Assembly (NCBI GenBank): GCA_019894765.1
Contig: JAGXNT010000115.1
Coordinates: forward strand, 1 to 64,000
Length of the DNA stretch: 64,000 nt
Direction: 5' to 3'
DNA from: Candidatus Heimdallarchaeota archaeon
GTDB lineage: Archaea > Asgardarchaeota > Heimdallarchaeia > JABLTI01
In this document: piece by piece, positions 7,502 to 33,931 of the stretch
Layout: each line of letters starts with the position of its first letter
Position numbering within the stretch: the stretch's first letter is position 1
Program-made: the position numbers and the translations under genes
The notes under the pieces: generated by a model
Database searches by the model: none
Told to the model about the DNA's origin: nothing
What the model saw: the letters and a program-made list of their open reading frames with translations, nothing else

Positions 7502-7619
7502 ATAACTATCCCACTGAGATATTGTTTACTTCTGTCATTTTACTTAATTCTATCTTATTTTTTAGTTTACCGTTGTTTCATACAAACAGAGCTGATATTT
7601 TGTTTACTCTTTATTTGTT

Positions 7620-8840: not shown

Positions 8841-8844
8841 CTAT

Positions 8845-8855
8845 CTTATATATTT
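8845..8855 (-). promoter_or_regulatory. TATA box of the vps4-vps25 unit
   Basis: Read on the minus strand the sequence is AAATATATAAG. It ends only about five bases before the first possible TTG (8840). Transcription would be expected near 8823, so translation from the TTG at 8807 would fit better than from 8840. Confidence 0.45.
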
Positions 8856-8968
8856 ACCATTATTAGCAATTTTATTATTCGAGGATTACATTCAAAAATC
8901 CTTGGAAATGACCTTATCTTGCTACTTACCTATATAAAAGACTGCTAATAAAAGCATAGGGTTACTAT

Positions 8969-10372
8969 TTAGCTCTTTTTCTTCATACTTTTTACGACTA
9001 CAATGAAATCCATGACATTTGTACCTGTTGGACCAGTAAAAATCAAGTTATTTGTTTGTTTGAGAAAGTTAAATGAATCATTATTGTTCAAGAAATCATC
9101 TATTTCTAGTTTCATTTTTGATCCTGATAATGCTGTATAACCATCGACTAATGCTCCTGCGGCATCAGTTGGACCATCAATCCCATCAGATCCTAGTGAT
9201 GCAATTACAATACGTTTCTTTCCTGCAATTATTTGACTTGCAGCTAATGCTAGTTCTTGATTTCTTCCACCTAAACCATTGCCCTGAATTGTAACTGTGG
9301 TTTCTCCCCCCGCTATTAAAACGGAATTATTATCCATTCTCTTTGCCTTCTCTGCAAATTCCTTGCCCACTTCTCTTGCTTCTCCACTGATTTCCGTTGA
9401 AATTATTATCGGAGAATATTTTTTTTGATTTGCATATTCTTTCATTGCATTGCATGATTTTGTATTAGAAGCAATAATGATATTCTCTACATTAGCGAAA
9501 GTAGAATTATCTGGTTTTAATGTCTCATTAATTTCTCTTGTTAATCCTTCTTTTACTACTTGCTGAACTGAAAGCGGTAATTTATGCATAATACCATATT
9601 TATTGATTATTTGTTCTGTAGTATGCCATGATGTTAAATCGGGAGCAGTTGGGCCAGAAGCAATTGTATCTAAAGTGTCACCTATGACATCACTGATTAC
9701 TAAAGAGATGACTTTCGCAGGTTGGATTAATTGAGCTAATTTACCTCCTTTTACTTGAGATATATGTTTTCTAATTGTGTTCAATTCATGTATAGTAGCT
9801 CCAACTTCTGTTAGTATATGAAATAATTCACTCAAATCCTCAAGAGTAATTCCTTCAACTGGTAACTCAAGCAAAGCAGAGCCACCACCACTAATCAAAC
9901 AAATAACTAAATCACTCGATGATAATTCATCAATCATTTCTATAATCTTTTTTGTTCCAGAAATTGTTCCAGAAGTCACTAAAGGATGTCCCGCGATATT
10001 ATATTGAATATTTTTCAAATTGAGCTTCTGTTTCACTGAATTTTCTGGAACATTGATCTGTCCTGCATGTATGTGCTGTCCAAGAATTTTTTCTAACGCT
10101 TCAGCCATCATTGCAGTTGCTTTCCCTGCTCCAATAACGAATAACCTACTAATATCGCTAAGTAAAAAATTACTTCCATTACTAAACTTTATTTCACTTT
10201 TCACTAGCTTTATAGAATCATGAATTGCTTTTTTTGGGTCTGCTGCTTTAATGCCCTCATTAATTATTTCTAATGCAATTTTTCGTGCTTCTATTGTTTT
10301 CAGGTCAAAATCTACCTCGAGAAGAGATTGATGATTCTTAATAAAGGAATGATTGGATTGTATTTCAAACAC
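8969..10372 (-). CDS. Glycerate 2-kinase, MOFRL family
   Basis: This 467-residue protein matches archaeal glycerate 2-kinases (DUF4147 plus MOFRL). It phosphorylates D-glycerate to 2-phosphoglycerate with ATP, feeding lower glycolysis or the non-phosphorylative Entner-Doudoroff route. Landmarks are VIGAGKATAMMAEALE near residue 75, CLISGGGSALLELP near 160, the MOFRL stretch NSVLIAGGETTVTI and GLGGRNQELALAAS near 370, and SDGIDGPTDAAGA near 400. Length is normal and nothing is missing. The start is a GTG at 10372; no clear Shine-Dalgarno sequence precedes it. It stands alone between vps4 and a divergent membrane gene. Confidence 0.93.
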   Translation of the reverse strand: MFEIQSNHSFIKNHQSLLEVDFDLKTIEARKIALEIINEGIKAADPKKAIHDSIKLVKSEIKFSNGSNFLLSDISRLFVIGAGKATAMMAEALEKILGQHIHAGQINVPENSVKQKLNLKNIQYNIAGHPLVTSGTISGTKKIIEMIDELSSSDLVICLISGGGSALLELPVEGITLEDLSELFHILTEVGATIHELNTIRKHISQVKGGKLAQLIQPAKVISLVISDVIGDTLDTIASGPTAPDLTSWHTTEQIINKYGIMHKLPLSVQQVVKEGLTREINETLKPDNSTFANVENIIIASNTKSCNAMKEYANQKKYSPIIISTEISGEAREVGKEFAEKAKRMDNNSVLIAGGETTVTIQGNGLGGRNQELALAASQIIAGKKRIVIASLGSDGIDGPTDAAGALVDGYTALSGSKMKLEIDDFLNNNDSFNFLKQTNNLIFTGPTGTNVMDFIVVVKSMKKKS

Positions 10373-10455
10373 CAGTCCTAAACTTCAATAACAATAATAA
10401 ATTACAATAAACATTTAAGAAGAATTATTAAATTACTTTTCTAGTATATAAGCTG

Positions 10456-11892
10456 GTGAAAAACTTGAGCTACACAAGGCAAAGAATTACAAATGCATTA
10501 TTCAATCAAAGATTCTTACTTGGAGTATATATTCCACTAGTTCTAGAGTTTTTAGTATTTGCAATTTACTCTGCATTTAGGGGGACAAAGCTTGATGTCA
10601 CTTGGTTGATTTACTTAATCATTTGGATTCTAATCTTCCTTGCTCCTGCTCTATTCTTCTATATTGTATCACCAATGTTTATCTATTTCATCTGTGGGAT
10701 TAGTAAAGAATATGAAATGAGTTTAAAGAAGAATATTGATTCGCTATTTATTTTCTCAGATGATATAGTTGGAGTATCTACAAAGCTAAAAGTCAAAATT
10801 GAAAAATCTATAGAAGAAAGATTAATCCCACAACTAGTAAAAGAAGTTAGAGGATTGTATATCGATTCTTATGTTAGTAGAACCAAAGAAAGTAGAAAAG
10901 AAAATCTACTTAGTAGTTTTGAATCATTGCTACTTTTCTCAGTAATCTGGGCAATCTTAGCGATGGCGAACTTTATTGGTGTAATAATACTTCATTATAG
11001 ACCAATTTCTTTTGATTTCTTTATTCTTGATAGAATTGATAATCCAATAAACGTGGCGATTTTTGCTTCCCTCTTTGCAATTTTTATTATTCTCAGCAAT
11101 ATCATTGCAATATATTCCATTGGTCGTCTTAGGAAATTAATCTTAGAAACACTTCCAATTGTTGTGTACATAGACGAAGAAGAGAGAATTAAGCAAAGTA
11201 ATTACATCCGAGCATTGAGTCAATTTCCAATCGAAAGCCTTGTTGGGGAACGCTTGTTAAGAAAACACTCAAGAAGAATCGATCCTATATATCAACAGGA
11301 ATTCTCAGAGTCTCTTGGAGAAGCTTTGAGAATCTACTCAAGAAATCAAGTTGCTAAACAACAAGCATGGAGAATCTATAAACCAATTCTTGATGAGTTA
11401 AAAGTAACAGCAGAACAAACTGCAGTAATAAAGGATAGGTTTTTTGACAGTCCTTTCTATGAAATTGCTCGAGATGTTTTCAGTTATGAACATGAGGTAA
11501 ATTCTCTCAAAACAGATATTGAATATGTAAAAAATCGTTTGAAATTATGGGATGAAATATCGGAAGAAGAACATGCAACAGCTTTGGTGTTTCTATTTAG
11601 GTCTACTGAACAATTATTCAAAAGTCTCATAGATAGATTTGGCGCTCCAGCTGATATTTACACTAATTTTTCCATGATTCTTAACTTTTTAAAAGATAAG
11701 GGCTTAATTTCTGAAAAAGATGAAAAAGCCTTTGACATTATTCGAAAGAAAAGAAATGCTCTCGTTCATCAATCGGGACGAGTGATTTCTATTAAAAAGA
11801 AGGAAATTGAAAATTTTCTTGAAAGCTTAGAGAGAACTTTACTTGCAGTTGAGGACCACTTCAAAAGTGAAGAAAAAGATCAAGAAACATAG
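10456..11892 (+). CDS. Four-helix membrane protein with C-terminal HEPN-type motif
   Basis: I do not recognise a named family. The protein (478 residues from the GTG) has hydrophobic segments near residues 21-42, 50-82, 155-180 and 196-218. The cytosolic C-terminal third is helical and contains RNALVH at residues 433-438, matching the R-x4-H signature of HEPN domains, within a context like abortive-infection or DUF4145 HEPN proteins. HEPN domains act as RNases or nucleotide-binding modules. The R-x4-H and helical surroundings are seen; RNase activity is only inferred. A TTG at 10465 sits five bases after GGTGA and may be the true start. No toxin-antitoxin partner is evident next to it. Confidence 0.7.
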   Translation: MKNLSYTRQRITNALFNQRFLLGVYIPLVLEFLVFAIYSAFRGTKLDVTWLIYLIIWILIFLAPALFFYIVSPMFIYFICGISKEYEMSLKKNIDSLFIFSDDIVGVSTKLKVKIEKSIEERLIPQLVKEVRGLYIDSYVSRTKESRKENLLSSFESLLLFSVIWAILAMANFIGVIILHYRPISFDFFILDRIDNPINVAIFASLFAIFIILSNIIAIYSIGRLRKLILETLPIVVYIDEEERIKQSNYIRALSQFPIESLVGERLLRKHSRRIDPIYQQEFSESLGEALRIYSRNQVAKQQAWRIYKPILDELKVTAEQTAVIKDRFFDSPFYEIARDVFSYEHEVNSLKTDIEYVKNRLKLWDEISEEEHATALVFLFRSTEQLFKSLIDRFGAPADIYTNFSMILNFLKDKGLISEKDEKAFDIIRKKRNALVHQSGRVISIKKKEIENFLESLERTLLAVEDHFKSEEKDQET

Positions 11893-12001
11893 ATAATATT
11901 TTGATCCTTTTCAGAAGAATCCATTAATAATCAATCTTAGCGAAAACCTTTTTGAGTAGTCCCTTTGTCCCCTCAATTAGAGAATACTAGAATGTGATTT
12001 T

Positions 12002-12427
12002 ATGTCTGAAAAAAGTAAAAAAACAACAAGCAAGAAACCAACAGCTAAAAAACCAGCTGTTAAAAAAGCAACCAGTAAAAAATCTCCTCCAAAGAAACCA
12101 ACCACAGCAACAAAGAAAAAACCAGCAACTGAAACAAAAGCAAAATCTAGAAAATTAAAAACTATAAAAGCTATGATTGTAAGTTATCGAAGAAATAATA
12201 GATTACAAACAACCAATCAAGCTATTGCTAAAATACTAGCTGATTATAATCATAAAGCTCTGATTGGAAAGAAATTCGTTCTAGAATTTCCTGATAGTGA
12301 AGCCATAGCTAAAGGTGTAGTCACTGGTACACATGGAAAAAGCGGTTCAAGACAAGTTAGAATTCGATTTGATAATGCAGGTATGTCAGCACATGCATTA
12401 AATCTAATTGGTGATATTTACATTTAA
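12002..12427 (+). CDS. Ribosomal protein eL33 (L35Ae) with histone-H1-like N-terminal tail
   Basis: Residues about 55-141 match the L35Ae family of the large subunit: IVSYRRNNRLQTTNQAI, GKKFVLEFPDS, a GTHGKSGSRQVRIRF segment and NAGMSAHALNLIGD. The first 50 residues are almost wholly Lys, Ala, Pro, Thr and Ser, a basic disordered tail resembling histone H1 tails. Typical eL33 proteins are about 85-110 residues, so the tail is a real extension. The ATG at 12002 is the only start that includes the tail; internal methionine at IKAMIVSY could give a core-only form. It converges on the coiled-coil gene, with a hairpin between. Confidence 0.9.
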   Translation: MSEKSKKTTSKKPTAKKPAVKKATSKKSPPKKPTTATKKKPATETKAKSRKLKTIKAMIVSYRRNNRLQTTNQAIAKILADYNHKALIGKKFVLEFPDSEAIAKGVVTGTHGKSGSRQVRIRFDNAGMSAHALNLIGDIYI

Positions 12428-16738: not shown

Positions 16739-17929
16739 ATGAAAGACGATGTTTGGAAAATAGCTAATGAGATTAAGAAGGAAATAATAGAGTTTCGAAG
16801 ACATTTTCACATGTACCCTGAATTAGGTTATGAAGAAGAGAAAACTTCTGAATTTGTTATTAAGAAACTGAAGGAATTAAGTATTGAAGTCACTCCTAAT
16901 TTAGCGAAATTTGGAGTCACTGGACTCATAAAAGGGGCAGCTGGTCAAGGAAAAACTATAGGCATTCGTGCAGATATGGATGCTTTACCAATCCTGGAAG
17001 AAAATGATGTTCCTTACAAATCAAAACATGATGGAAAAATGCATGCTTGTGGTCATGATGCCCATACTGCTATTTTGCTTGGTGTTGCAAAGATTCTCGT
17101 TAAAATGAAGGATAAAATAAAAGGAAATGTAAAATTAATTTTCCAACCAGCAGAAGAAGGATTGGGTGGAGCAAAACCAATGGTGCAAGAAGGTGCTCTA
17201 AAAGACCCTGAGGTTTCTGCTGTGATTGCTCTACATATGGCTGATGAGGTTGAAGTTGGACATATAGAAGTAAAAGATGGAAGTTTTACAGCTAGTGCAG
17301 ATAAAATATGGTTTGATATTGAAGGAAAAGGTGGCCATGCAGCATCACCACATGATACCATAGATCCTATTATGGTTGGATCTCATCTTATAACTGCTCT
17401 GCAAACAGTTGCTTCAAGAAATACTGATCCTGTAGATCCAGTAGTTCTTACCATTGGTACTTTTAATGCTGGAACTGTCTACAATGTTATTCCAAGAACT
17501 GCTCATATGACTGGAACTATTAGATCATTGAAACAAGAAGTTAGGGAAGCGACTTTTGAAAGTGCAAAAAGAATAGCTGAAGGCGTAGCAAAAGCTTTTG
17601 GTGCAAAAATCACCCCTGGAATAAAAAGAGGTTATTCCCCTGGATATAATAGTCCTGAACTAAACGTTTTGCTAAAACAAGCTACCTCAGAATTAGTTGG
17701 GGAAGACAAAGTTCACATAGCTGAAGCACCATCTATGGGTGCAGAAGATTTCTATGAATTCAGTGATAATAATCGAATTCCTGTAGCAATGTTCTGGTTA
17801 GGAATTCTAAATGAAAAGAAAGGAATCATCCATCCAGGTCATAATCCAAAATATGATATTGATGAGGATGCACTTCCTTTGGGCTGTGCTATTCTTTCCT
17901 TAACTGCTTTAAAATATCTTACAAATTGA
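16739..17929 (+). CDS. M20D-family metal-dependent amidohydrolase
   Basis: The 396-residue protein belongs to the HipO/IAA-amino-acid-hydrolase branch of M20 peptidases. These di-metal enzymes cleave N-acyl amino acids or small amides in the cytoplasm. Visible landmarks are RRHFHMYPELGYEE near residue 22, IRADMDALPI near 80, the ligand motif MHACGHDAHTAILLG near 101-115, FQPAEEGLGGAKPM near 140 and GGHAASPHD near 200 in the dimerisation domain. A late PSMGAEDFYEF supplies another catalytic-site segment. All parts are intact. A strong hairpin follows the stop. The substrate cannot be assigned. Confidence 0.93.
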   Translation: MKDDVWKIANEIKKEIIEFRRHFHMYPELGYEEEKTSEFVIKKLKELSIEVTPNLAKFGVTGLIKGAAGQGKTIGIRADMDALPILEENDVPYKSKHDGKMHACGHDAHTAILLGVAKILVKMKDKIKGNVKLIFQPAEEGLGGAKPMVQEGALKDPEVSAVIALHMADEVEVGHIEVKDGSFTASADKIWFDIEGKGGHAASPHDTIDPIMVGSHLITALQTVASRNTDPVDPVVLTIGTFNAGTVYNVIPRTAHMTGTIRSLKQEVREATFESAKRIAEGVAKAFGAKITPGIKRGYSPGYNSPELNVLLKQATSELVGEDKVHIAEAPSMGAEDFYEFSDNNRIPVAMFWLGILNEKKGIIHPGHNPKYDIDEDALPLGCAILSLTALKYLTN

Positions 17930-23122: not shown

Positions 23123-23968
23123 TTATTGTGTGTGGGTTGCATTGAGGTGTAATCCTAAAGCTTCTTCATCCATGCCAAAAGCCATGCCCATAAGTTGTGT
23201 GAGGTAATAGACTGGTAGCTTTACTTGTTTCTTTATTATCTGTGAGACAACAGCTTGTTTTGTTTCATATTGGCTTTGGCAGAACGGACAAATAGTAGCC
23301 ATGCCTTCAAAACCCATCTCAATAAGTTCAGTAAGCTTATTTCCTGTCATTCTAAAAGGCATATCATGTTCTGAAATAATGCCACCTGCTCCACAACACT
23401 CATGAAGAGTTGGATAAACTTCAGTTTCTAATCCTATATCCTTCATAACAGCCATCATTTTTTCTAAACGAGATATTCCACCTATTTGCTCTTCACCTCG
23501 TTCTTCTTCACCATGACACCCTAAATGAACAGCTATTTTCTTTTTCGAGAGATTCTTGGTAACTTTTGCTTTAATATCCTCTCGAGCTTCGTAAAATATG
23601 TCTACAAGATGAACAATCTCAAGTTTCCCTTTAAATGAGAGTCCTTCCTTAGCTAATTGCTTGTTTATCTTCTTTCTTAGTTCTGAGTTCTCAAGTAATT
23701 CTTCTCTTGCTTCATTAAAAGATAAATAGCAACCATTGCATATTGGAATAAGATTTCTCTTCTCTTTTTCCGCAACAGCCATATTCCTCGCAGCAAGATA
23801 AAGCCAGGTAGTTTTATCTACTGCAATAAATGGAAAACCACAGCAATTGAACTCTTCTTGTACTTCAATTGGTAGCTTTAACTCTTTAACAATCGCTCGT
23901 ACAGATAATTCAAAAGCATATTGGGAAGTAGGTACTTTACATCCTAAGTAAAGATAGGCTTTGTCCAT
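23123..23968 (-). CDS. hdrB: Heterodisulfide reductase subunit B-like (HdrB)
   Basis: The 281-residue protein carries two CCG domains, the hallmark of HdrB: LGCKVP, CCGFP and CNGC in the first half, then LGCHGE, ECCGAGG and CPFC in the second. In methanogens these bind two noncubane [4Fe-4S] clusters that reduce the CoM-S-S-CoB disulfide. In a non-methanogen the disulfide substrate is unknown. It is the last gene of a seven-gene leftward operon, two bases after hdrC. There is no membrane segment, so the complex is cytoplasmic. All cluster cysteines are present. Confidence 0.95.
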   Translation of the reverse strand: MDKAYLYLGCKVPTSQYAFELSVRAIVKELKLPIEVQEEFNCCGFPFIAVDKTTWLYLAARNMAVAEKEKRNLIPICNGCYLSFNEAREELLENSELRKKINKQLAKEGLSFKGKLEIVHLVDIFYEAREDIKAKVTKNLSKKKIAVHLGCHGEEERGEEQIGGISRLEKMMAVMKDIGLETEVYPTLHECCGAGGIISEHDMPFRMTGNKLTELIEMGFEGMATICPFCQSQYETKQAVVSQIIKKQVKLPVYYLTQLMGMAFGMDEEALGLHLNATHTQ

Positions 23969-23970
23969 TT

Positions 23971-24459
23971 TTATTCCTCCGTAGATCCTGCTGTAGCTTT
24001 TTCATCTTCACACCCGATGTCAAAGAAACCAAGCTCAGTTAAAGCTTCAGTAATGGCTTTAGTATTAATTTTAGGAAGAGGAGGTAATCCTATCTCTTCA
24101 CGATTATACTCGTCAAAATCTTCAGTTATGATAATTTCTTCTTTTGAGGATAATCCAGTTTCTCTAAGAAGTCTGATTAGAACTTCGAATCCTTTCGGAA
24201 CGTGATCTTTCGCACACTTGTAGCTTTCATTCTTAAGCTCTGTTACAATCAAAAGTGGGGAGACATTTTGAGGACAACGACGTTCACATCTCTTACATAA
24301 GACACAATACCAGAGATTTTCATCGTTCAGAAGATTTTCTCTATCAACTTTTGATCGAGCAACAATTACATGTGGTTTGAAAGAAGGATCATATTCAGCA
24401 GTTGGGCATCCACTAGTACACTTGGCACAAATATAACACGCAGTTTCATCGAATTTCAT
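23971..24459 (-). CDS. hdrC: Heterodisulfide reductase subunit C-like (HdrC)
   Basis: This 162-residue iron-sulfur protein has two [4Fe-4S] motifs, CYICAKCTSGCP and CVLCKRCERRCP, in the order typical of HdrC, followed by a helical tail. It passes electrons between HdrA and HdrB. Its start overlaps the end of the MvhD-like gene by four bases and hdrB starts two bases after its stop, showing translational coupling. No membrane segments are present, unlike HdrE-linked forms. Confidence 0.95.
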   Translation of the reverse strand: MKFDETACYICAKCTSGCPTAEYDPSFKPHVIVARSKVDRENLLNDENLWYCVLCKRCERRCPQNVSPLLIVTELKNESYKCAKDHVPKGFEVLIRLLRETGLSSKEEIIITEDFDEYNREEIGLPPLPKINTKAITEALTELGFFDIGCEDEKATAGSTEE

Positions 24460-25424
24460 TTAACTTCCTCCTCAGTTGCTAGATTAGCAGCGATAAGGTA
24501 TTTGCCTAAATTGACGTAATCCTCCCCGACAAGATCTCGTCTACAAACAGGACATAAGTGCATAATTTTAGAGTCAATTAACTCGAACTCATCTTTAATT
24601 TCCTCAAGAATTCCAACAGTAGCATATATTGCCCCACACTTTGTGCAAGCAACAAATTGTTTTCCAGCAAATTGCTTTTTCTCTTTCGCTAGAAACGGTT
24701 TAAGATGAATTTCTTTCTTCACAATTATAGCATCTGTTGGACAGGCTCGTATACAAGCTTCGCATCCAGTGCATAAATAGTGTTCATAAAACATTTTACG
24801 ATGTTTTTGTGTTTCTTTAGCTGTTATAGCATCTGTTTCGCAGAGAAGTGCACAACTACCGCAAGAAACGCATTTATCATCATCCACAGTAATCATACCA
24901 AATCCTTCTCTGGGAATTGGTTTTTCATCTATTTTGTCCTTAGTACCAAGAGCTTTGACATATGCATTGAGAATCTCGAGAAGTCTCTCTCTTTTATCGT
25001 CACTCTTTACTTTGGCTTTAATATCTGGAAGATCCGGTAATGATAATACATCTTTTACAAAGTTTGATGTTGAATTTGAAAATGCTTCAGGCATACCTGC
25101 TGAGTTGTAATAACTAGTAACGTATTTTGGATTTATTCCTATACCTTTGAGTAATTTCTTTAGGAAATTGATACTTTCTTCTGCATGAACATTTCCATCC
25201 CCATAATGACATTGATCTGGGAGACATCCAGAAACAAAAACACCTTTTGCCCCTTGGACTAATCCTTCTAGCACCCAAAATGGGTCTGTGGAACCACTAC
25301 AAGGAGTTCGTATTATTCGAGTATTAATAGGATATTTCATGCCTGATTGTCCTGCTAAATCTGCAGCTGCGTATGCACATTCGTTGCAACAGAAACCAAT
25401 AATTCGTTCTTTTTCCTTTTTCAT
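24456..25424 (-). CDS. MvhD/FlpD domain fused to a two-cluster ferredoxin and zinc-ribbon-like tail
   Basis: Residues 1-135 match MvhD (FlpD), the [2Fe-2S] protein linking hydrogenase or formate dehydrogenase to HdrA: GFCCNECAYAAADLAG, RTPCSG and SGCLPDQCHY. Residues about 175-240 are a ferredoxin with CVSCGSCALLCE and CTGCEACIRACP. The tail has CTKCGAIYA and CPVCRRD, a zinc-ribbon- or rubredoxin-like pair. In methanogens MvhD is usually a separate protein of about 140 residues, so this is a fusion. Its ends overlap both hdrA and hdrC by four bases. It likely supplies electrons to HdrA. Confidence 0.92.
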   Translation of the reverse strand: MKKEKERIIGFCCNECAYAAADLAGQSGMKYPINTRIIRTPCSGSTDPFWVLEGLVQGAKGVFVSGCLPDQCHYGDGNVHAEESINFLKKLLKGIGINPKYVTSYYNSAGMPEAFSNSTSNFVKDVLSLPDLPDIKAKVKSDDKRERLLEILNAYVKALGTKDKIDEKPIPREGFGMITVDDDKCVSCGSCALLCETDAITAKETQKHRKMFYEHYLCTGCEACIRACPTDAIIVKKEIHLKPFLAKEKKQFAGKQFVACTKCGAIYATVGILEEIKDEFELIDSKIMHLCPVCRRDLVGEDYVNLGKYLIAANLATEEEVK

Positions 25425-27421
25425 GATTCTTCTACCTCGAGGTCTTTCTCAGTCATTCCCTTAATTTGAGGAACAATCTGTATGGTTCGATAGTGTGGTA
25501 GCTGCATTGAACCTGTAGGACAAACCGTCGTACATGTTCCACATTTCTTGCAGACAGTAGGATTTACCCAAGCAACTCGCTTAATAGCTCCTTTCAGTTC
25601 AATAGCATCAAATGGACAAACCTCTACACAGGCTCCGCATCCGACACAAGTCTCTTCAGTCACTTGAGCTGCGTTGTTTGCTAAGGTTATCTTCCCAGTC
25701 ATTAACCTGCTTGCTGCTGAACTTGCAGCTGCTTTTGCTTCACTAACAGAAGCTGTAATAGTTTTTGGACTACTCGCACAACCAGCGATATATACTCCTG
25801 CAGCTTTTGTATCAACGGGTTCTAATTTTGGATGCAATTCCTTGTAGTAATCAACCATTTTTCCCTCACTTGATGAGGGATCAACACCAAAAATAAGTCT
25901 GATATCACTTGCTTCTTTTACTGGTCTCATACCAACTTGTAGTGCAACAATGTCAACTTCTAAATGCTCTAATTTCTCAATTGCAGAATCATAAACTTTG
26001 ATTCCTAGCTGACCGTTTGGTAGAATGTCTATCTGACTAGGTTTTCCACGAACAAATCTAACACCTAGTTCTCTTATTCTCTTGTAATATTCTTCATATC
26101 CTTTGCCGACAGTTCGCATGTCTGCATAACAAATGTAGACTTTCGTATCTGGATATTGCTTTAGTGTTAAATAGGCATGTTTTAAGCTCGCCATGCAACC
26201 AACGTTACAACAGTAACCAGCAATATCATCTCTAGACCCAACACATTGAACAAATGCTACTGATTTGGGTGGTTTTTTAGTACTTGGTTTAATCAATTTT
26301 CCATCTGTAGGACCAGAAATATTGAATAAAAAGCCAAATTCAGAATTTGTCATAATGTCTGGGCTATTTCCATAATTGTATTCCTCGATAATAGATGGAT
26401 CAAAATCCTCAAAACCAGTCGCAAGGATTACCGCACCAAAAGACATTGTTAGATGTTCTGGTTTTTGATCAAAATTAATAGCACCACTTGGGCAGTTCTT
26501 TTCGCATCGTCTACAAACATCTCGACCTTTATCACGGTTCTTTAAGTAAAGGCAGTAATCTTGGTCAATCACAACTGCCTTAGGAATGGATTGTGCGAAA
26601 GGAAAGAATACCGCATTAGTTTTTCCAATTCCGTGGAAATACTTGTTCGGTCTTTTTTTAACAGGACAGTGCCCAATACAGGTGTAACATGATTTACATT
26701 TATCAATATCAACAAAGCGAGGATGCTGGACAAGTTCGACTTCAAAATTTCCACCATTTCTTTCAGAACTTACAACCTCAGTCTGAGTCATAACTGTGAT
26801 ATTTGGGTGTGAAAAAGCATCATTCATCTTTGGAGTTAAAATACATGCAGAACAATCATTTGTCGGAAAGGTCTTATCTAACTTTGCCATGTATCCTCCG
26901 ATGGTCGCATCTTTATCTATTAAAACAACTTCAATATTTTTTTCAGCTAGATCTAAAGCTGTCTGAATGCCTGCTACTCCTGCACCTACTACAAGAGCTC
27001 GTTTCTTAACATCATACTCAGTTGAATCAATGGCTTCGAGATTAGCAGCACGCTCAATAGCACCATTAACAAGATCAATAGCCTTAATTGTTGCTAATTC
27101 CATATCGGAATGAATCCAAGAATTTTGTTCTCTTAAATTAACAAACTCGAGATAAAAGGGATTTAAATTATTGCGCTCTAGAACTCTTCTGAAGGTTTTT
27201 TCATGAAGCTTTGGTGTACAAGCACCAACTACGACTCGATCAATCCCTGTATCTTTTATAATTTGGGCTATGAGTTCTTGACCAGATTTACTACACATAA
27301 ACATATAATCTGTGGAAAAAGTAACAAGCTTGTTTTTCTTAACTACATCTGCAACTTTTTTAACATCGACTGTTCCTGCTATGTTTTTTCCACAATGACA
27401 AATGAATACTCCAATCTTCAT
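25421..27421 (-). CDS. hdrA: Heterodisulfide reductase subunit A-like flavoprotein (HdrA)
   Basis: The 666-residue protein has the normal HdrA layout. An N-terminal segment starts with FICHCGKNIAG. An FAD-binding motif follows, VVGAGVAGIQTALDLAE near residue 145, then IGGYMAKLDKTFPTNDCSAC. A central cluster-binding insert includes CKSCYTCIGHCP and CRRCEKNCP. Two C-terminal [4Fe-4S] motifs are CVGCGACVEVCP and CKKCGTCTTVCP. HdrA carries the bifurcating FAD in methanogen MvhADG-HdrABC. It lies in the middle of the leftward operon, with overlaps at the following gene. The ferredoxin gene precedes it by 22 bases. Confidence 0.96.
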   Translation of the reverse strand: MKIGVFICHCGKNIAGTVDVKKVADVVKKNKLVTFSTDYMFMCSKSGQELIAQIIKDTGIDRVVVGACTPKLHEKTFRRVLERNNLNPFYLEFVNLREQNSWIHSDMELATIKAIDLVNGAIERAANLEAIDSTEYDVKKRALVVGAGVAGIQTALDLAEKNIEVVLIDKDATIGGYMAKLDKTFPTNDCSACILTPKMNDAFSHPNITVMTQTEVVSSERNGGNFEVELVQHPRFVDIDKCKSCYTCIGHCPVKKRPNKYFHGIGKTNAVFFPFAQSIPKAVVIDQDYCLYLKNRDKGRDVCRRCEKNCPSGAINFDQKPEHLTMSFGAVILATGFEDFDPSIIEEYNYGNSPDIMTNSEFGFLFNISGPTDGKLIKPSTKKPPKSVAFVQCVGSRDDIAGYCCNVGCMASLKHAYLTLKQYPDTKVYICYADMRTVGKGYEEYYKRIRELGVRFVRGKPSQIDILPNGQLGIKVYDSAIEKLEHLEVDIVALQVGMRPVKEASDIRLIFGVDPSSSEGKMVDYYKELHPKLEPVDTKAAGVYIAGCASSPKTITASVSEAKAAASSAASRLMTGKITLANNAAQVTEETCVGCGACVEVCPFDAIELKGAIKRVAWVNPTVCKKCGTCTTVCPTGSMQLPHYRTIQIVPQIKGMTEKDLEVEES

Positions 27422-27443
27422 ATTTTTTCACCGGTCCTCTTCT

Positions 27444-27923
27444 TCAATGACTACCTTCCTCTATAATATTAACAAAACAAATCAAATCCTCACCAAGATT
27501 CAAAACTCGTTGGGCTTGGAGTTTGATTTTCTTCATAGTTTCGCTTGGAACATCAACTACTTGCAGAGCTTTGTCTTTGCACGCGGCAACGCACAAGGGA
27601 CCACCTTCTTTATCCTCACACATCTGACACTTTACAGCTTTAGAGTCAAGAAAATACATGCCACCATAAGGGCATGCTGCTAAGCAGAACTGACAACCAA
27701 CACATAATTCAGGATTAACTTTTACGATTCCTTTTTCTTTTGTAATCGCTTCCGTTTTACAAACATTCATACAATAAGGAGATTCGCACTGATGGCAACT
27801 CACAATGATTCTAGATGGAGTTAATGTTAATAATGCAATACCATATTCCTTTTTGCAAGCATCAATGCAGTCAGAACAATCATTTTTGCATTTTTCAGGA
27901 TAAAATACTAAGCCTTTTGTCAT
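27444..27923 (-). CDS. Four-cluster ferredoxin (HycB/CooF-like)
   Basis: The 159-residue protein has four cysteine groups: CKNDCSDCIDACK, CHQCESPYCMNVCK, CVGCQFCLAACP and CQMC...LCVAACK. This is the pattern of HycB/CooF/DmsB-type electron-transfer proteins with four [4Fe-4S] clusters. Between the HydG-like and hdrA genes, it is the natural wire joining a NAD(P)H module to HdrA. It follows the HydG-like gene by two bases. No twin-arginine or signal peptide is present, so it is cytoplasmic. Confidence 0.92.
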   Translation of the reverse strand: MTKGLVFYPEKCKNDCSDCIDACKKEYGIALLTLTPSRIIVSCHQCESPYCMNVCKTEAITKEKGIVKVNPELCVGCQFCLAACPYGGMYFLDSKAVKCQMCEDKEGGPLCVAACKDKALQVVDVPSETMKKIKLQAQRVLNLGEDLICFVNIIEEGSH

Positions 27924-27925
27924 CT

Positions 27926-28672
27926 CTAGAAAATCCCCTCAACATCTTTGATTTGTTCATAAGTAAATACCGGTCCATCTTTACAAACCAAGAATTTACC
28001 ATATGCACAGTTCCCGCACTTTCCATACCCACAAGTCATCCGATTTTCTAAACTAACAATAATATCCTCTGGTTGAACCCCTAATTCCAAGCATTTCTTA
28101 ACGACGAATTTCATCATAATTGCAGGTCCCACAGTTACCACTTTAGCATTTTCAGGCATTTTGAATTTATCAAATAGAGTAGTAACTACTCCTACATTTC
28201 CTTTCCATTTATCATCACCTTTGTCAACTGTGACAAGCATTTCTGTTTTTGGATCCTTTTTCCAGGTCTCAAACTTCTTTACATAAATTAAATCTCCAGG
28301 AGTTCTAGCTCCATACAAGATAATTTGATTTGGAAAATCATTGACGAATATATGTTGAATTAATGATCTTAATGGTGGTAGACCGATACCACCTGCAACA
28401 ATGACTATACTATTTGCTTTTTCTAATTCTTCAAGTGGGAATGGTTTTCCAAAGGGTCCTCTTATGCCTACTTTGCTACCGACTTCTAATTTGTGCAAAG
28501 CTTCTGTGACTAAACCAGCTTTTCTAATCGTTGATTGAAAAGTTTTACCAGCTTTAGAGGAAAAAGCAAAAGGTGCTTCACCTACTCCAAAAATTGTTAA
28601 CATGAAGAATTGTCCTGGTAAATAGGTTAATTTTTCATCATCAGGTGAGAAAGTGTATGTATTAACATCCAC
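27926..28672 (-). CDS. HydG/AsrB-like FAD- and NAD(P)-binding oxidoreductase
   Basis: This 248-residue protein is a ferredoxin-reductase-type module: the flavin region LPGQFFMLTIFGVGEAPF, GIRGPFGKPFP, the nucleotide-binding AGGIGLPPLRSL and a C-terminal [2Fe-2S] motif CGYGKCGNCAYGKFLVC. It matches the gamma subunit of sulfhydrogenase (HydG) and AsrB. It should exchange electrons with NAD(P)H. Residues upstream of the GTG, read in the same frame (TITKVEKETVDV), still look like the family's first beta strand, but no ATG, GTG or TTG occurs there. A noncanonical start or a base error is possible. It belongs to the leftward Hdr operon. Confidence 0.9.
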   Translation of the reverse strand: MDVNTYTFSPDDEKLTYLPGQFFMLTIFGVGEAPFAFSSKAGKTFQSTIRKAGLVTEALHKLEVGSKVGIRGPFGKPFPLEELEKANSIVIVAGGIGLPPLRSLIQHIFVNDFPNQIILYGARTPGDLIYVKKFETWKKDPKTEMLVTVDKGDDKWKGNVGVVTTLFDKFKMPENAKVVTVGPAIMMKFVVKKCLELGVQPEDIIVSLENRMTCGYGKCGNCAYGKFLVCKDGPVFTYEQIKDVEGIF

Positions 28673-28704
28673 TGTTTCTTTTTCTACCTTGGTGATTGTA
28701 TATA

Positions 28705-29640
28705 TTATTGGTTTACTATGACTGGTAATTTTACTTCAGCCCCTTTTTTTGCTAAATAAGTTAAGATTTTCTTAATATCAAAATGCGCCGGACACAATTT
28801 GTAACACCTACCACATCCTGTGCATCCCAAAACACCATATTGTTCAAGAATGACCTCAAACTTATGACTATATCGTCTCTGGAATCGACGAGACCGATTT
28901 GGCATTAGGGTATGTCCCCCGGCCATAAGATTGAAAGATTCGAGAACACATGCATCCCATACTCGAACTTTTGAAAAATTGTTGGTATCCTTTTTTACAT
29001 GTGCTTCAGTATAACAAGTACATGTTGGACACGAATAATTACAATAACCGCATCCTAGACAACCAGATGCAATCTTTTCCCATTCTTCCACAGGTATATT
29101 TCGTATTTGTTCTGGGGTGGGTATAGTTATGATTTCTTGATCCGGGTTCTTCAGAGCTTCCTTTTTCATCTTAGTTATTTGTTCTCCGAGACCTTTTGGT
29201 GCTTCTACAAGTCCAAGTTTCTGAATGTATTTCTCGCCCTTCTTGGTTAGAACTTCAACATAATACTCTTTGTCTTTTAAAGGAGTCAGTTCCAAATCCC
29301 CAAGACCGTTGTTTAGTAAGCTTCCTCCAGTGGACAGACAAAAACCACCTTCACAAGATTTCAAGCAATTTACGACAGCAAATATAGCTTGTTCTCTAAA
29401 TATCTTGTATTGTGGGTCTGCAGGTTCTTCTAGCATTACTTTGTCAATATATTCAATAGCTATTGCATCACAAGGATGAATTAGAACAAGATTTTCATCC
29501 ATATCAAGATGCTCTTTGATTTTTAGAGACTTAATATTGTAGGATAAAATCTTCTGTCTCTTAAAGACATACTGGTTTTTCATCTCTAAATTAGGTGGAA
29601 CAACCAAATCTTTGATAATATAAGCTTTAACTGGGGACAC
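28705..29640 (-). CDS. HydB/AsrA-like iron-sulfur protein
   Basis: The 311-residue protein matches the beta subunit of sulfhydrogenase (HydB) and AsrA. The C-terminal half has CLGCGYCNYSCPTCTCY and CTGCGRCYKLCP, binding two [4Fe-4S] clusters, with RSRRFQRRYSHKF between them. It is the first gene of the leftward operon, immediately before the HydG-like gene. The neighbouring rightward HydB is a paralog. It starts with GTG at 29640. It is about 40 residues shorter at the N-terminus than its paralog, and the upstream frame is open for a further 37 codons without a standard start. Confidence 0.9.
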   Translation of the reverse strand: MSPVKAYIIKDLVVPPNLEMKNQYVFKRQKILSYNIKSLKIKEHLDMDENLVLIHPCDAIAIEYIDKVMLEEPADPQYKIFREQAIFAVVNCLKSCEGGFCLSTGGSLLNNGLGDLELTPLKDKEYYVEVLTKKGEKYIQKLGLVEAPKGLGEQITKMKKEALKNPDQEIITIPTPEQIRNIPVEEWEKIASGCLGCGYCNYSCPTCTCYTEAHVKKDTNNFSKVRVWDACVLESFNLMAGGHTLMPNRSRRFQRRYSHKFEVILEQYGVLGCTGCGRCYKLCPAHFDIKKILTYLAKKGAEVKLPVIVNQ

Positions 29641-29880
29641 ATTACTGCCAACTTTTAGTTTATCTTGAGATTTTCCTAATTCAAGTTCTAAATATATTTT
29701 GGTATAAATGCTAAGAATTGAATTTAATTGTTTAGATTTATATTATGAACCATTTTTTTCGTTTCTTAAGTTTCCAATGAGATCTAACCTATTTTGTAAA
29801 TCAGCAAAAATAATTAATATCATCAATATAGTTAAAAGGGTAAGGTAACAAACCCTTGGTCGACTCCATTCAAGCAAGTT
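29641..29880. promoter_or_regulatory. Divergent promoter region between the Hdr and hydrogenase operons
   Basis: This 240-base gap drives two divergent operons. On the minus strand, CATTTATACC (around 29701-29710) is a TATA candidate. On the plus strand, the A/T-rich stretch around 29806-29832 (AATAATTAATATC and TATAGTTAAAA) could serve. At 29836-29857 an AAGGGT/ACCCTT inverted repeat lies 40 bases before the hydB start and may be an operator or leader hairpin. One regulator may control both operons; none is encoded nearby. Confidence 0.45.
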
Positions 29881-29895
29881 TTGGAAGAAAAAATA

Positions 29896-30939
29896 ATGCC
29901 CTCTAAAATAATCTCTAGAGATAAAATAAGCAATTTCGTTGATTCTATGATCAATGATTTCATTGTAATTGCTACAACAAACAAAAACGAAGTACCAACT
30001 TTGGCGGAAATCTCTAGCTTTGAAGAAGTTCTTTTTGATACAGATTTACCTATGATTCCATTAAAAAAGCTCTTTCATCCTGCACAACAAGATCTTTTCA
30101 AATTTAGCCGAACGAAAGGTGTTGTTGATATCTATTTGCTAAAAGCAACAAAGGATATTGAAACAAAAGTAGTTGTTTTTGGCGTGAGGCCTTGTGATAT
30201 AACTGGTAATAATGTATTAGATGAAATATTCAAAGAAAATTTCCGTGATGATTACTACTTAACTCTACGTAATAGAGCACTAATAATCGGAATCAATTGC
30301 TTGAAACCTTGTTATGAAAACTGCTTTTGTGAATCAATGAATTCTAATGATCCAAAGAGTGGATTTGACATAATGCTTACTGAAATTGCTAAAAATCAGT
30401 ACTTAGTTGTTCCTAATACGGATGGCGGGAAAAGAATAATCGAATTATATCCTGAACTCTTTGAGGATGCAACAGAAGAGCATTTTGATAAATATATTAG
30501 AATATTGGAGTTGAAAGATAACAATTTCAAAAAAGATATCCTCGTTGAGGGTCTAGCAAGTGAATTAGAGGATAAATTCGAATCAAAGGCGTGGAGAAAG
30601 TATACAAAAGATTGTCTCTTTTGTGGTTCTTGCACTTTTGTTTGCCCAACTTGTTATTGTTATAATGTTAAAGATAAAATAGCGATAGATCTAGAGCATG
30701 GAATACGTCTTCGAGAATGGGATTCATGTTACTATCCTGAATTTGCAAGAGTAGCTGGAGGTCATGATTTTAGACATGAAAAAGAAAGACGTTTCAGATA
30801 TCGCTATTTACATAAATTCATTGACATTCCAAGAAGATACAACGTTGAAGGGTGTGTGGGGTGCGGAAGGTGCATTACTTACTGTCCCGCAGATATTGAT
30901 GTCAGAGAAGTTTTAGAAGACGTGAGAGGGGAATCCTAA
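29896..30939 (+). CDS. hydB: [NiFe] hydrogenase-associated iron-sulfur subunit (HydB, beta)
   Basis: The protein has 347 residues from the ATG at 29896; an in-frame TTG at 29881 would add five. It matches the sulfhydrogenase beta subunit/AsrA: VVFGVRPCDITGNNVL near the middle of the first half, INCLKPCYENCFC, then CLFCGSCTFVCPTCYCY and CVGCGRCITYCP for two [4Fe-4S] clusters. It is the first gene of a hydB-G-D-A operon, the same order as Pyrococcus furiosus sulfhydrogenase I. It overlaps hydG by one base (TAATG). It links NAD(P)H oxidoreductase HydG to the small subunit. Confidence 0.93.
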   Translation: MPSKIISRDKISNFVDSMINDFIVIATTNKNEVPTLAEISSFEEVLFDTDLPMIPLKKLFHPAQQDLFKFSRTKGVVDIYLLKATKDIETKVVVFGVRPCDITGNNVLDEIFKENFRDDYYLTLRNRALIIGINCLKPCYENCFCESMNSNDPKSGFDIMLTEIAKNQYLVVPNTDGGKRIIELYPELFEDATEEHFDKYIRILELKDNNFKKDILVEGLASELEDKFESKAWRKYTKDCLFCGSCTFVCPTCYCYNVKDKIAIDLEHGIRLREWDSCYYPEFARVAGGHDFRHEKERRFRYRYLHKFIDIPRRYNVEGCVGCGRCITYCPADIDVREVLEDVRGES

Positions 30940-31799
30940 TGAGAGCAGTAATGGCACATGATAAAGGATATATTGCACCACATGAAGCAAAAATCATAAA
31001 AATTAGACAACTAACAGAAACAACTAAGCTTTTTGAATTGAAATTTGTTGAGGAACACTTGAATCCTCTCTTCCAAAATGACCCTGGTCAATTCGTTGAA
31101 TTATCTGTTTATGGTATTGGCGAAGTTCCAATTAGTATAACTTCCCCTCCAACAAAACGTGGTTCTTTTGAGCTTGGAATAAGAAATGTAGGAAATGTTA
31201 CCAACGCAATGCACAAACTGAAGAAAGGAGACATTGTTGGAATTAGAGGTCCATTTGGCAATCATTTCCCTGTTGAAGAATACAAAGGTAAAGATCTATT
31301 ATTTGTTACTGGAGGTTTAGGTTATCTTCCTCTTAGATCTGCTTTCAGATATGCTATTCACAATCGAGATGATTATGGACAAATCTTCATTCTTTATGGT
31401 GATAGGTGCCCAGCAGATGTTCTTTTTCCAGAAGAAAACGATGAATATGAAAAACGAGAAGATATAGAATTCCTTAGCACTGTAGATCGTGACGATTTAA
31501 TGTGTTGGGGAGGTAACATTGGTGTTGTTACTTCACTTTTCCCAACAATAGCTGATAAACTTGATCCTAAGAATACTGTTGCAATGATTTGTGGTCCACC
31601 TATTATGTATAAATTCGTGAACATAGAATTAGAGAAATTGGGTCTAGATAGTGATCACATTTTTCTTTCTCTCGAGCGAAAAATGAAATGTGGAGTAGGC
31701 AAGTGTTGTCATTGTGGTATTGGTGATAAATTTGTTTGTCTCGATGGTCCAGTCTTTACCTTAAGACAAATACGAACGCTACCGGAGGCTTTAATGTAA
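30939..31799 (+). CDS. hydG: Hydrogenase diaphorase subunit (HydG, gamma)
   Basis: The 286-residue protein is the FAD/NAD(P)-binding gamma subunit of group 3b-type hydrogenase. It shows DPGQFVELSVYGIGEVP, GIRGPFGNHFP, VTGGLGYLPLRSA and a C-terminal [2Fe-2S] motif CGVGKCCHCGIGDKFVC. It transfers electrons between NAD(P)H and the iron-sulfur chain. Its start codon overlaps the hydB stop and its stop overlaps the hydD start, so the four genes are translationally coupled. It is a paralog of the protein at 27926-28672. Unlike that one, it has a complete N-terminal region. Confidence 0.94.
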   Translation: MRAVMAHDKGYIAPHEAKIIKIRQLTETTKLFELKFVEEHLNPLFQNDPGQFVELSVYGIGEVPISITSPPTKRGSFELGIRNVGNVTNAMHKLKKGDIVGIRGPFGNHFPVEEYKGKDLLFVTGGLGYLPLRSAFRYAIHNRDDYGQIFILYGDRCPADVLFPEENDEYEKREDIEFLSTVDRDDLMCWGGNIGVVTSLFPTIADKLDPKNTVAMICGPPIMYKFVNIELEKLGLDSDHIFLSLERKMKCGVGKCCHCGIGDKFVCLDGPVFTLRQIRTLPEALM

Positions 31800-32614
31800 T
31801 GGCAAAACCAAAAATTGGTATTGTTGCTTTCACTGGTTGCGCAGGTTGTCAACTAAGTATTTTAGATCTGGAAGATGAACTCCTCGATTTACTAAATCTA
31901 GTTGAAATAATTGATTTCAGAATGGCTATGACAGGAAACAAAGAAGGACCATATGACATCTTATTTGTTGAAGGCAGCATTGTAAATGACAAGCAAGAAA
32001 AGGAACTGAAAGAACTTCGGGAAAAAGCTCAAGTGCTTGTTGCTATTGGTTCCTGTGCATGTTTTGGTGGAGTACAAGCTATTAGAAATTATCATGATGA
32101 TAAGAAAATCCGAGAAGCTGCTTATGGTGAAGAAGGTGCTAAAAATTTCCCTGTATTTCAAGTTAAACCACTTAACAAAGTTGTTCATGTGGATCACTAC
32201 ATTCTAGAATGCCCTGTAAACAAATATGAGTTCCTTGATTTTATCAAATATATTTTGATCGGTGGAAAACCGAAACTCCCAAATTTACCTGTGTGTCATC
32301 AATGCAAAGCATTAGAAAACCGTTGCATTTTCTTGGAAGACAATATCATTTGTATGGGACCAGTCATTCAAGCTGGTTGTGGAGCGTTATGTCCAAGTCA
32401 TGGTTTACCTTGTGATGGATGTCGAGGTTCTACACTTGAAGCAGCATATCAACAGCAAGTTGACTTGATGATCAAAAAAGGAGCATCTGTTCAGGATGTC
32501 TCAAGATTTGTTTTGAAATATAATGGAGAAGATCCCCAAGTGAGGGATTTTCTATTAAAAACTTGGCAAGAGCAGGATGAGGACCTCAAATATGGTGAGG
32601 AAGAGGAGAAATAG
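31799..32614 (+). CDS. hydD: [NiFe] hydrogenase small subunit (HydD/MvhG type)
   Basis: The protein has 271 residues from the ATG at 31799, which overlaps the hydG stop and follows CGGAGG. It carries the small-subunit proximal cluster motif FTGCAGCQLS, then EGSI, GSCACFGGVQAI and CPVNKYEF, and further cysteines (CHQC, CIFLEDNIICMGP, CGALCPSHGLPCDGC) for additional [4Fe-4S] clusters. It lacks the twin-arginine signal of membrane-bound hydrogenases, so the enzyme is cytoplasmic. Longer frames from 31736 are not needed. Confidence 0.95.
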   Translation: MAKPKIGIVAFTGCAGCQLSILDLEDELLDLLNLVEIIDFRMAMTGNKEGPYDILFVEGSIVNDKQEKELKELREKAQVLVAIGSCACFGGVQAIRNYHDDKKIREAAYGEEGAKNFPVFQVKPLNKVVHVDHYILECPVNKYEFLDFIKYILIGGKPKLPNLPVCHQCKALENRCIFLEDNIICMGPVIQAGCGALCPSHGLPCDGCRGSTLEAAYQQQVDLMIKKGASVQDVSRFVLKYNGEDPQVRDFLLKTWQEQDEDLKYGEEEEK

Positions 32615-32626
32615 GTGTGATTAAGA

Positions 32627-33931
32627 ATGACTGTTAAAAAATTACATTTAGAACACATTTGCAGAGTAGAAGGACATGGTAATCTCTTAGTTGAAATTGA
32701 TGGTAACAAAACCAAAAACGTCGAAATGCAAATAGTTGAAGGTACTCGATTCTTTGAAGGATTTGCTGTCGGTAGAAAATATGATGAAGCAATAAATATC
32801 ATGTCAAGAATATGCGCTATCTGCAGTACTTCTCATCAACTATCTGCTGTGGAAGCTTTGGAACGTTCCGTTAGCATTGTTCCAAGTGATCAAGTTCATG
32901 AATTTAGGATTCTACTTGACCATGGTGAAAACCTTCAATCACACATTTTGCATGTTGGAATGCTTGCTTTACCAGATTTCTTGGGTTTTGATGGAGCTAT
33001 ACAAATGATTCCAAAATATCCAAATGAAGTTAAATTAGTTCTTCGAATGAAAAGAATCGCAAATGATTTACAAGCATTAATTGGTGGGCGTGAAATTCAT
33101 CCAGTAAACATTCGACCTGGTGGTTTTGGCAAGTATCCTACAACAAAGCAACTCGAAGAAATGAAAGAGAAACTCGTTGAATTTAAGAAAGGAACACAAG
33201 CAATAGCTGATCTTTATGCAACCCTAGATATTCCCCAATTTGTGAATAAAACTGAACAACTTGCGGTATATGATGGAAAAACATATCCCTTCATCCGTGG
33301 GGATATCAAAAGTTTGCTCAGTGGAAAAGTAATACCTCCTGAGGATTATAAAAAAGATTTCATAAAAGAAGAAGTTAAACCGTATTCAACTGCCAAGTTT
33401 TCAACCATCAATAATGGTGATATCTATTATGTGTCACCACTTGCTCGAGTCAATATTAATAATAAGTTCTTAACTGATGATGCAAAGGCACTCATAAAGC
33501 AGTTTGGATTGAAATTACCTGACTTCAATCCATTTAACAATAATCTTGCACGAGTCATTGAATTAATGCATTGTGCGGATGAAGCAATTGAGATTCTAGA
33601 CAAATACATTGCAACACCTCCCAAAGATGACAACAAAAACTTCAGAATTAAAGCTGGAACAGGAACAATCGCAACTGAAGCACCAAGAGGTCTATTGAAC
33701 CACTCCTACGATGTGAACAAAGAAGGAATCATACAAAGAGCAGATGTTATAACTCCTACAGCACACAATACAAACAAAATTGAGGACGACGTGATTAAAT
33801 TCACTCCTAAACTCACAGACATGAAAGACGATGAGCTCGAGTTATTCTTTAATATGCTAGTTAGATCTTACGATCCATGTATTTCATGTTCAGCACACGC
33901 AATAACAATTGACTTGAGAAGAACAAAATAA
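32627..33931 (+). CDS. hydA: [NiFe] hydrogenase large subunit (HydA/MvhA type)
   Basis: This is the catalytic subunit, 434 residues. The NiFe ligands are intact: RICAICSTSH near residue 62 and YDPCISCSAH near 415-424. The N-terminal HICRVEGHGNL is typical of group 3 hydrogenases. Only about ten residues follow the final His, so the C-terminal peptide removed at maturation would be short, or is absent. With HydBGD it fits group 3b (NAD(P)-linked, bidirectional), although group 3c remains possible given the neighbouring Hdr genes. No hyp or protease maturation genes are in this window. A hairpin follows. Confidence 0.95.
   Translation: MTVKKLHLEHICRVEGHGNLLVEIDGNKTKNVEMQIVEGTRFFEGFAVGRKYDEAINIMSRICAICSTSHQLSAVEALERSVSIVPSDQVHEFRILLDHGENLQSHILHVGMLALPDFLGFDGAIQMIPKYPNEVKLVLRMKRIANDLQALIGGREIHPVNIRPGGFGKYPTTKQLEEMKEKLVEFKKGTQAIADLYATLDIPQFVNKTEQLAVYDGKTYPFIRGDIKSLLSGKVIPPEDYKKDFIKEEVKPYSTAKFSTINNGDIYYVSPLARVNINNKFLTDDAKALIKQFGLKLPDFNPFNNNLARVIELMHCADEAIEILDKYIATPPKDDNKNFRIKAGTGTIATEAPRGLLNHSYDVNKEGIIQRADVITPTAHNTNKIEDDVIKFTPKLTDMKDDELELFFNMLVRSYDPCISCSAHAITIDLRRTK

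Follow-up and report, generated by a model that had tools for sequence, protein, structure and literature searches.

The window analysed here, the whole 64,000-nucleotide stretch at positions 1 to 64,000 of contig JAGXNT010000115.1 from a Candidatus Heimdallarchaeota archaeon, carries on its minus strand, from 29640 to 23123, a seven-gene operon that probably encodes a soluble, seven-subunit, Flx-like NAD(P)H:disulfide oxidoreductase. This complex, in which ferredoxin may or may not take part, appears to have been assembled separately from the known FlxABCD-HdrABC system, at least in its heterodisulfide reductase (Hdr) half. By Pfam and NCBIfam, the gene order is HydB-like, HydG-like (hereafter FlxB-like and FlxA-like), four-cluster ferredoxin, HdrA, MvhD-ferredoxin fusion, HdrC and HdrB. 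The seven open reading frames (ORFs) are tightly packed, with successive gaps of 32, 2, 22, -4, -4 and 2 nucleotides (nt), and they are therefore very probably a single operon. An initial annotation, made from the letters of the DNA alone, had described the same seven genes in this order and at these positions, with no hydrogenase catalytic subunit among them, and the ORF map, the Pfam/NCBIfam profiles and the motifs bear out both points:

28705..29640, minus strand: FlxB-like (HydB/AsrA family) iron-sulfur subunit, 311 aa (Fer4_22, 2.6e-27)
27926..28672, minus strand: FlxA-like (HydG/AsrB/PyrK family) FAD/NAD(P) subunit, 248 aa as called (NAD_binding_1, DHODB_Fe-S)
27444..27923, minus strand: HycB/HydN-like (HydN/DmsB-like) ferredoxin, 159 aa (Fer4_11)
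25421..27421, minus strand: HdrA, 666 aa (NF040770, 760 bits; 5odc_A, E 5.6e-178)
24456..25424, minus strand: FlxD-like fusion, 322 aa (FlpD, 6.2e-39; Fer4_21; alignment A2)
23971..24459, minus strand: HdrC, 162 aa (TIGR03290, 66.5 bits; two CxxCxxCxxxC motifs)
23123..23968, minus strand: HdrB, 281 aa (CCG, two stretches; 5odc_B, E 8e-44)

None of these proteins reaches the NCBIfam cut-offs for Hdr, Hyd or Asr, so all seven are divergent members of their families. Their redox motifs are intact. The Fer4_22 protein (FlxB-like) has AsrA/ShyB/HydB as its best family match and resembles the beta subunit of the P. furiosus sulfhydrogenase (9nez_B, E 1.2e-29); the FlxA-like subunit matches AsrB/HydG best, resembles 9nez_C (E 1e-43) and keeps both its NAD motif and the HydG-type [2Fe-2S] cysteines (214/219/222/230). 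The 16 cysteines of the HycB-like ferredoxin form four sets of four, and its best solved relatives are subunit 2 of formate hydrogenlyase (7z0s_B) and, over residues 1-134 of 159, 9mqx_E. HdrA has its three CxxCxxCxxxC motifs complete and has kept its ferredoxin domains, and HdrB has both CCG motifs of the non-cubane clusters (C10/42/43/77/80 and C151/191/192/227/230). The FlxD-like fusion combines MvhD with two [4Fe-4S] motifs and a HycF-like CxxC...CxxC tail; its AlphaFold2 model (predicted local distance difference test score, pLDDT, 91.5) matches the folds of 5odc_D (MvhD) and 7z0s_F (formate hydrogenlyase subunit 6), as does its sequence, and its domain order differs from that of the fusion found at another locus, L076.

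The arrangement is conserved far beyond chance. Counts from genome searches, here and below, are lower bounds, and the genomes are a sample of a larger group. The FlxB-like query finds matches in at least 132 of 195 Asgard genomes, with close orthologues (69-88% identity) in at least four of them (G001, G002, G003 and G182); the remaining matches listed are at most 39% identical, except for a C-terminal FlxB fragment on a second G002 contig. Thirty loci from this search comprise four of the window type, 15 with a hydrogenase HydB and 11 of another Hdr-linked type. In G182, all seven genes occur in identical order, and 50 of the 51 window ORFs match its contig C2 colinearly. G002 is split over two contigs, one running from the FlxB C-terminus to HdrB and the other carrying the FlxB N-terminus beside HydB/HydG, while G001 and G003 display the order FlxB-FlxA-FlxC-HdrA before their contigs end inside HdrA ("FlxC" in this order is not a match to our FlxC model A1, which finds nothing in the carriers). 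The pair is thus unseparated from Hdr in every genome with a close orthologue, in two of them as far as the contig ends. Taken together, domains, motifs and conserved order support the proposal of the initial annotation that an NAD(P)H module would be wired to HdrABC without hydrogenase subunits. Against about 5.8 billion proteins, FlxB has 14 matches, of which a single one is as distant as 30% identity and the other 13 range over 68-90%, with organism names of Heimdallarchaeota and 'Asgard group archaeon'. A scan of genome contigs with HdrA alone returned five loci, one of which (L005) is merely a ferredoxin-motif match.

An NADH-fed Hdr is not in itself new, nor is its occurrence in Asgards, because FlxABCD-HdrABC has already been reported: this NADH dehydrogenase/heterodisulfide reductase dates from 2015 according to papers that cite it, its NADH function has been described for D. 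vulgaris (an excerpt of PMC12125255), and other Asgard archaea are stated to possess it (Imachi et al. 2020; PMC7015854, in part). The claim that the operon joins its modules 'in a new way' was hence too strong. The new part is narrower, namely a composition and an ancestry unlike those of the Flx-Hdr loci compared here; full-text literature searches, which covered few subscription journals, found no description of the window-type variant. Like FlxABCD-HdrABC of D. vulgaris (likened through publications, not by sequence), of Bacillota and of the Asgard 'type b' loci, the operon places a HydG-like FlxA and a HydB-like FlxB together with an MvhD-type protein and HdrABC, and it has no hydrogenase subunit. 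There are a number of differences: (i), a HycB-like ferredoxin stands in place of the 327-residue FlxC; (ii), MvhD is fused to a HycF-like ferredoxin; (iii), the order is B-A-Fd-HdrA-D-HdrC-HdrB; (iv), HdrA belongs to another branch and has a glycine in place of a conserved glutamate (E356G, see below); (v), no DsrC was found in four window-type relatives.

The presence of FlxC (~327 aa, model A1) is our own operational criterion for FlxABCD-HdrABC. The model finds nothing in the four window-type carrier genomes (E 1e-10) and adjoins FlxB in all 11 other Hdr-linked Asgard loci, which were found via FlxB and not via FlxC; its matches extend to at least 55 of 195 Asgard genomes (E 1e-50) and, in the Clostridium phylum, to at least 108 of 299 (E 1e-20). 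A further 18 loci, from this phylum (Bacillota), also have it adjoining FlxB, but were chosen for their FlxC. Each of them has FlxB and an HdrA-like gene, and 17 have FlxA, the last being cut off where its contig stops; MvhD was seen in 14 and HdrB in 11.

In the HdrA tree (44 rows, methanogen HdrA left out), the window HdrA falls apart from Flx HdrA. It joins those of Asgard clusters with duplicated Hdr genes (100/99, on branches flagged as long), and the approximately unbiased (AU) test rejects a clade of window and Flx HdrA (p = 6.1e-6, or 7.5e-5 when the outlier L071 is omitted). The Hdr half is thus separate from that of the sampled Flx loci.

Other known systems share parts with the operon. 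The methanogen complexes MvhADG-HdrABC and Fdh-HdrABC have the same HdrABC core with a CCG HdrB, an MvhD adaptor and the flavin lysine of HdrA; in the window, the input is formed by NAD(P)H subunits instead of a NiFe hydrogenase (neither MvhA nor MvhG is found in the operon) or a formate dehydrogenase. The NAD(P)H module is of the HydB/HydG type of group 3b (sulf)hydrogenases HydBGDA (9nez_B, 9nez_C), but it lacks a HydD/HydA partner, is partnered with Hdr and, by the FlxB tree, does not belong to the hydrogenase clade. Although AsrB and AsrA of the AsrABC sulfite reductase are the best NCBIfam matches of the FlxA-like and FlxB-like subunits, these fall below the respective cut-offs (189 of 288.6 and 128 of 323 bits), and AsrC is absent from the operon. 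The HycB/HycF ferredoxins of formate hydrogenlyase resemble the third gene product (7z0s_B) and the FlxD tail (7z0s_F), which in the window are attached to an Hdr operon.

From what is known of these families, we hypothesize the following electron path and direction within the predicted complex. NAD(P)H would reduce the flavin adenine dinucleotide (FAD) and [2Fe-2S] cluster of the FlxA-like subunit, from where electrons would follow the [4Fe-4S] chain of the FlxB-like subunit to the HycB-like ferredoxin, the ferredoxin and MvhD [2Fe-2S] clusters of the FlxD-like fusion and the HdrA flavin; they would then pass through HdrC to the two non-cubane clusters of HdrB, which could reduce a substrate other than CoM-S-S-CoB, either a disulfide or a persulfide. 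Since HdrA retains ferredoxin domains, co-reduction of ferredoxin (bifurcation) would be possible. The reverse would be equally allowed, ferredoxin and a thiol yielding NAD(P)H that the adjacent hydrogenase would vent as H2.

Bifurcation, as suggested by the initial annotation, keeps one of its two key residues and loses the other. In HdrA (M. thermolithotrophicus numbering), K409 is reported to contact flavin N5 and E356 to hold K409, and 61 of 401 HdrA are reported to lack K409 and 87 to lack E356 (PMC12054007, in excerpt). Window HdrA keeps the lysine (K414) and has G363 at the E356 position, and this combination of glycine and lysine recurs in all six distinct members of the window clade (window, G182, G002, G001, P0016 and P0017). 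Both K409 and E356 are present in the 12 Flx, nine Mvh-linked and five MvhD-linked HdrA of the tree, and in 109 of 116 other HdrA among the matches listed; these 116 come from the best 120 of 7463 HdrA matches (the other four being of the window clade), and many are long proteins that have two or more flavin domains, a single one of them being shown in the alignment. The sister clade, 'DUAL', has glycine and arginine at the two positions (6/6). Because glycine replaces E356 throughout the window clade, bifurcation appears weakened, without being disproved, which weighs against our reading. It is possible, though in our estimate well short of even, that the complex is a non-bifurcating NAD(P)H:disulfide (or thiol:NAD(P)+) oxidoreductase in which HdrA acts as an electron relay only, an alternative that concerns the mechanism alone and overlaps with our reading. 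The glycine in six of six members, the additional loss of K409 in the sister clade and the role ascribed to E356 in holding the flavin-contacting lysine would all suit such an enzyme; retention of K409, the intact ferredoxin motifs of HdrA and the sizeable share of surveyed HdrA that lack E356 (87/401, same source) argue against it.

In two of the duplicated Hdr clusters (L110 in G141 and L111 in G130), the order is HdrC-HdrB-HdrA(422)-HdrA-like(654)-Fd-MvhD fusion(304)-HdrA(677)-HdrC-HdrB; the 677-aa HdrA lacks both K409 and E356, and profile searches found no FlxAB- or hydrogenase-like ORF nearby.

As for the NAD(P)H half, trees make a separate origin from Flx likely. In the FlxA tree, the 22 Flx rows are all united in a clade to which the window type does not belong (100/99). 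In the FlxB tree, the window type is a deep clade of its own, outside the one that holds all 18 hydrogenase rows (99/95), and the Flx rows do not make up a supported clade (35/67). Several points weigh in the opposite direction. Without the Asr outgroup, the hydrogenase clade has a support of 84/86 with a stray match, P0014, inside it, and the window type and Flx come to lie on one side of the FlxB tree; and sisterhood of window FlxA/FlxB with Flx or with hydrogenases yields AU p values of 0.12-0.44, so that an origin of the NAD(P)H module shared with Flx would stay compatible with the data. Moreover, FlxC may be questioned as a family mark, since published Flx operons vary, with three Flox genes in D. 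vulgaris and four in D. gigas (PMC4287179, in part). These points would favour a divergent true FlxABCD-HdrABC, descended from the same ancestral operon by loss of FlxC, fusion of FlxD and exchange of HdrA, and so would the shared logic of the two systems, the earlier report of Flx-Hdr in Asgards (PMC7015854) and the unrejected sisterhood of FlxA/FlxB with Flx itself (AU p 0.43, 0.26 and 0.12). We nevertheless consider such descent unlikely: the AU test rejects HdrA sisterhood (p 6e-6), the window type falls outside the canonical FlxA clade (100/99) and FlxC was not found in any of the four carriers. Judged by FlxC and HdrA descent, the operon is better not filed as FlxABCD-HdrABC, although it plausibly works like it.

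The sampling defines how these trees are to be read. Flx rows come from the Clostridium phylum and Asgards, with Desulfobacterota left out, and the type labels of L006, L008 and L009 were assigned by hand from gene neighbours. Exact duplicates were removed from the FlxA/FlxB trees, after which L006, L007, L008, L017, L020, L029 and L033 were left out; L040, L043 and P0014 were additionally dropped in the outgroup/AU runs of FlxA/FlxB, and L040 alone in one FlxA run. Where two rows were identical, the copy retained was the first, and as this was then dropped, G182, G145, G104, G142 and G081 are lost from the FlxA/FlxB trees, although a row from the databases may still represent G182 FlxB; the HdrA tree has G182, G145, G142 and G081, but not G104.

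Upstream of the operon, a hydrogenase is encoded on the opposite strand:

29641..29880, no strand: divergent intergenic region of 240 bp, common to the Hdr and hydrogenase operons (ORF map)
29881..33931, plus strand: complete neighbouring group-3b-type hydrogenase HydB-HydG-HydD-HydA, outside the Hdr complex (ORF map, NCBIfam)

Its HydA has the RxCxxC and DPCxxC motifs, and HydA and HydD are joined to the divergent HydB/HydG, not to the Hdr-linked pair. That the latter is a second electron-input arm of this hydrogenase, gained by local duplication, is very improbable and already largely refuted: the head-to-head placement is kept in all four carriers (the G003 contig including only part of HydB), but the pair is operonic with Hdr, shares only 29% and 44% identity with the HydB and HydG of the hydrogenase and, unlike these, does not cluster with other hydrogenases. 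Local duplication of the adjacent HydBG is rejected by the FlxA/FlxB trees, and exclusive service to the hydrogenase, which the initial annotation had weighed, is rejected since the hydrogenase carries a complete HydB/HydG pair of its own.

The called start of the FlxA-like gene is probably too far downstream. At 28703-28708 (minus strand), the conserved FlxA reading frame opens with ATA codons, and a conserved peptide is encoded upstream of the GTG; the relatives L001 and L003 do not have this GTG, and part of their FAD domain would be lost. This makes a non-AUG (AUA/AUU) start with translational coupling likely, in the window probably the ATA near 28708, which overlaps the FlxB stop and precedes the GTG of the called gene by about 12 codons. 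A frameshift fusion of FlxB and FlxA was considered and rejected, as the window has an in-frame stop between the A-run and FlxA.

Candidate acceptors were sought in the draft genomes of the relatives. DsrC and ComA were not found in any of the four (G001, G002, G003, G182), the latter setting them apart from the methanogens with MvhADG-HdrABC or Fdh-HdrABC, and McrA was not found in the three searched (G182 lying outside that search). CoM/CoB was rejected as acceptor because ComA and McrA were not found in the relatives searched, and DsrC because it was not found there either; DsrC is not universal in any case, for a Syntrophomonas genome with Flx-Hdr is also reported to lack it (PMC6687939, in part). 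TusA is present in all four relatives and equally in 11 of 14 control genomes, and is therefore uninformative.

At one Asgard type-b Flx-Hdr locus (L037, by Pfam), 2-oxoacid:ferredoxin oxidoreductase genes flank one side and an FeS protein and a FAD_binding_2 flavoprotein the other; this flavoprotein may act on the acceptor side there. Similar-sized ORFs flank the Flx-Hdr operon at L038 and L040, and one side of it at L043.

Heimdall-type Asgard archaea have been discussed as near relatives of the eukaryotic host, and the operon bears on how they balance NAD(P)H, ferredoxin and H2. We advance a fuller account tentatively, at a little under even: an NAD(P)H-Hdr complex would have arisen independently of FlxABCD-HdrABC in one Heimdall lineage, with formate-hydrogenlyase-like ferredoxins as wires and an HdrA devoid of the lysine-positioning glutamate. 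Such a complex would either bifurcate through a modified mechanism or simply pass electrons from NAD(P)H to the disulfide of a thiol carrier, and NAD(P)H would link it to the neighbouring hydrogenase. If this is true, Hdr was wired to NAD(P)H on more than one occasion, meaning that caution is needed before every HydBG-Hdr operon is called FlxABCD. The clade also supplies a natural E356G HdrA for probing the role of that glutamate in flavin-based bifurcation, and the disulfide acceptor becomes a concrete biochemical question.

Minor observations concern other Hdr loci and the window at large. At L039 (G188, 7141-12195), what comes after MvhD-FlxC-FlxB is not FlxA but a protein of the radical SAM/SPASM type and an Oxidored_q6 protein resembling a NiFe small subunit. 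Frames of Asgard HdrA matches such as those of G059, G163 and G179 are interrupted by TGA, consistent with selenocysteine forms, and the HdrA frames split in two at L057-L063 (Clostridium phylum) may be further such forms. Finally, the block of the window that is colinear with G182 contains two M20-family peptidases (16739-17929 and 46534-47715), which would fit a peptide-fermenting lifestyle.

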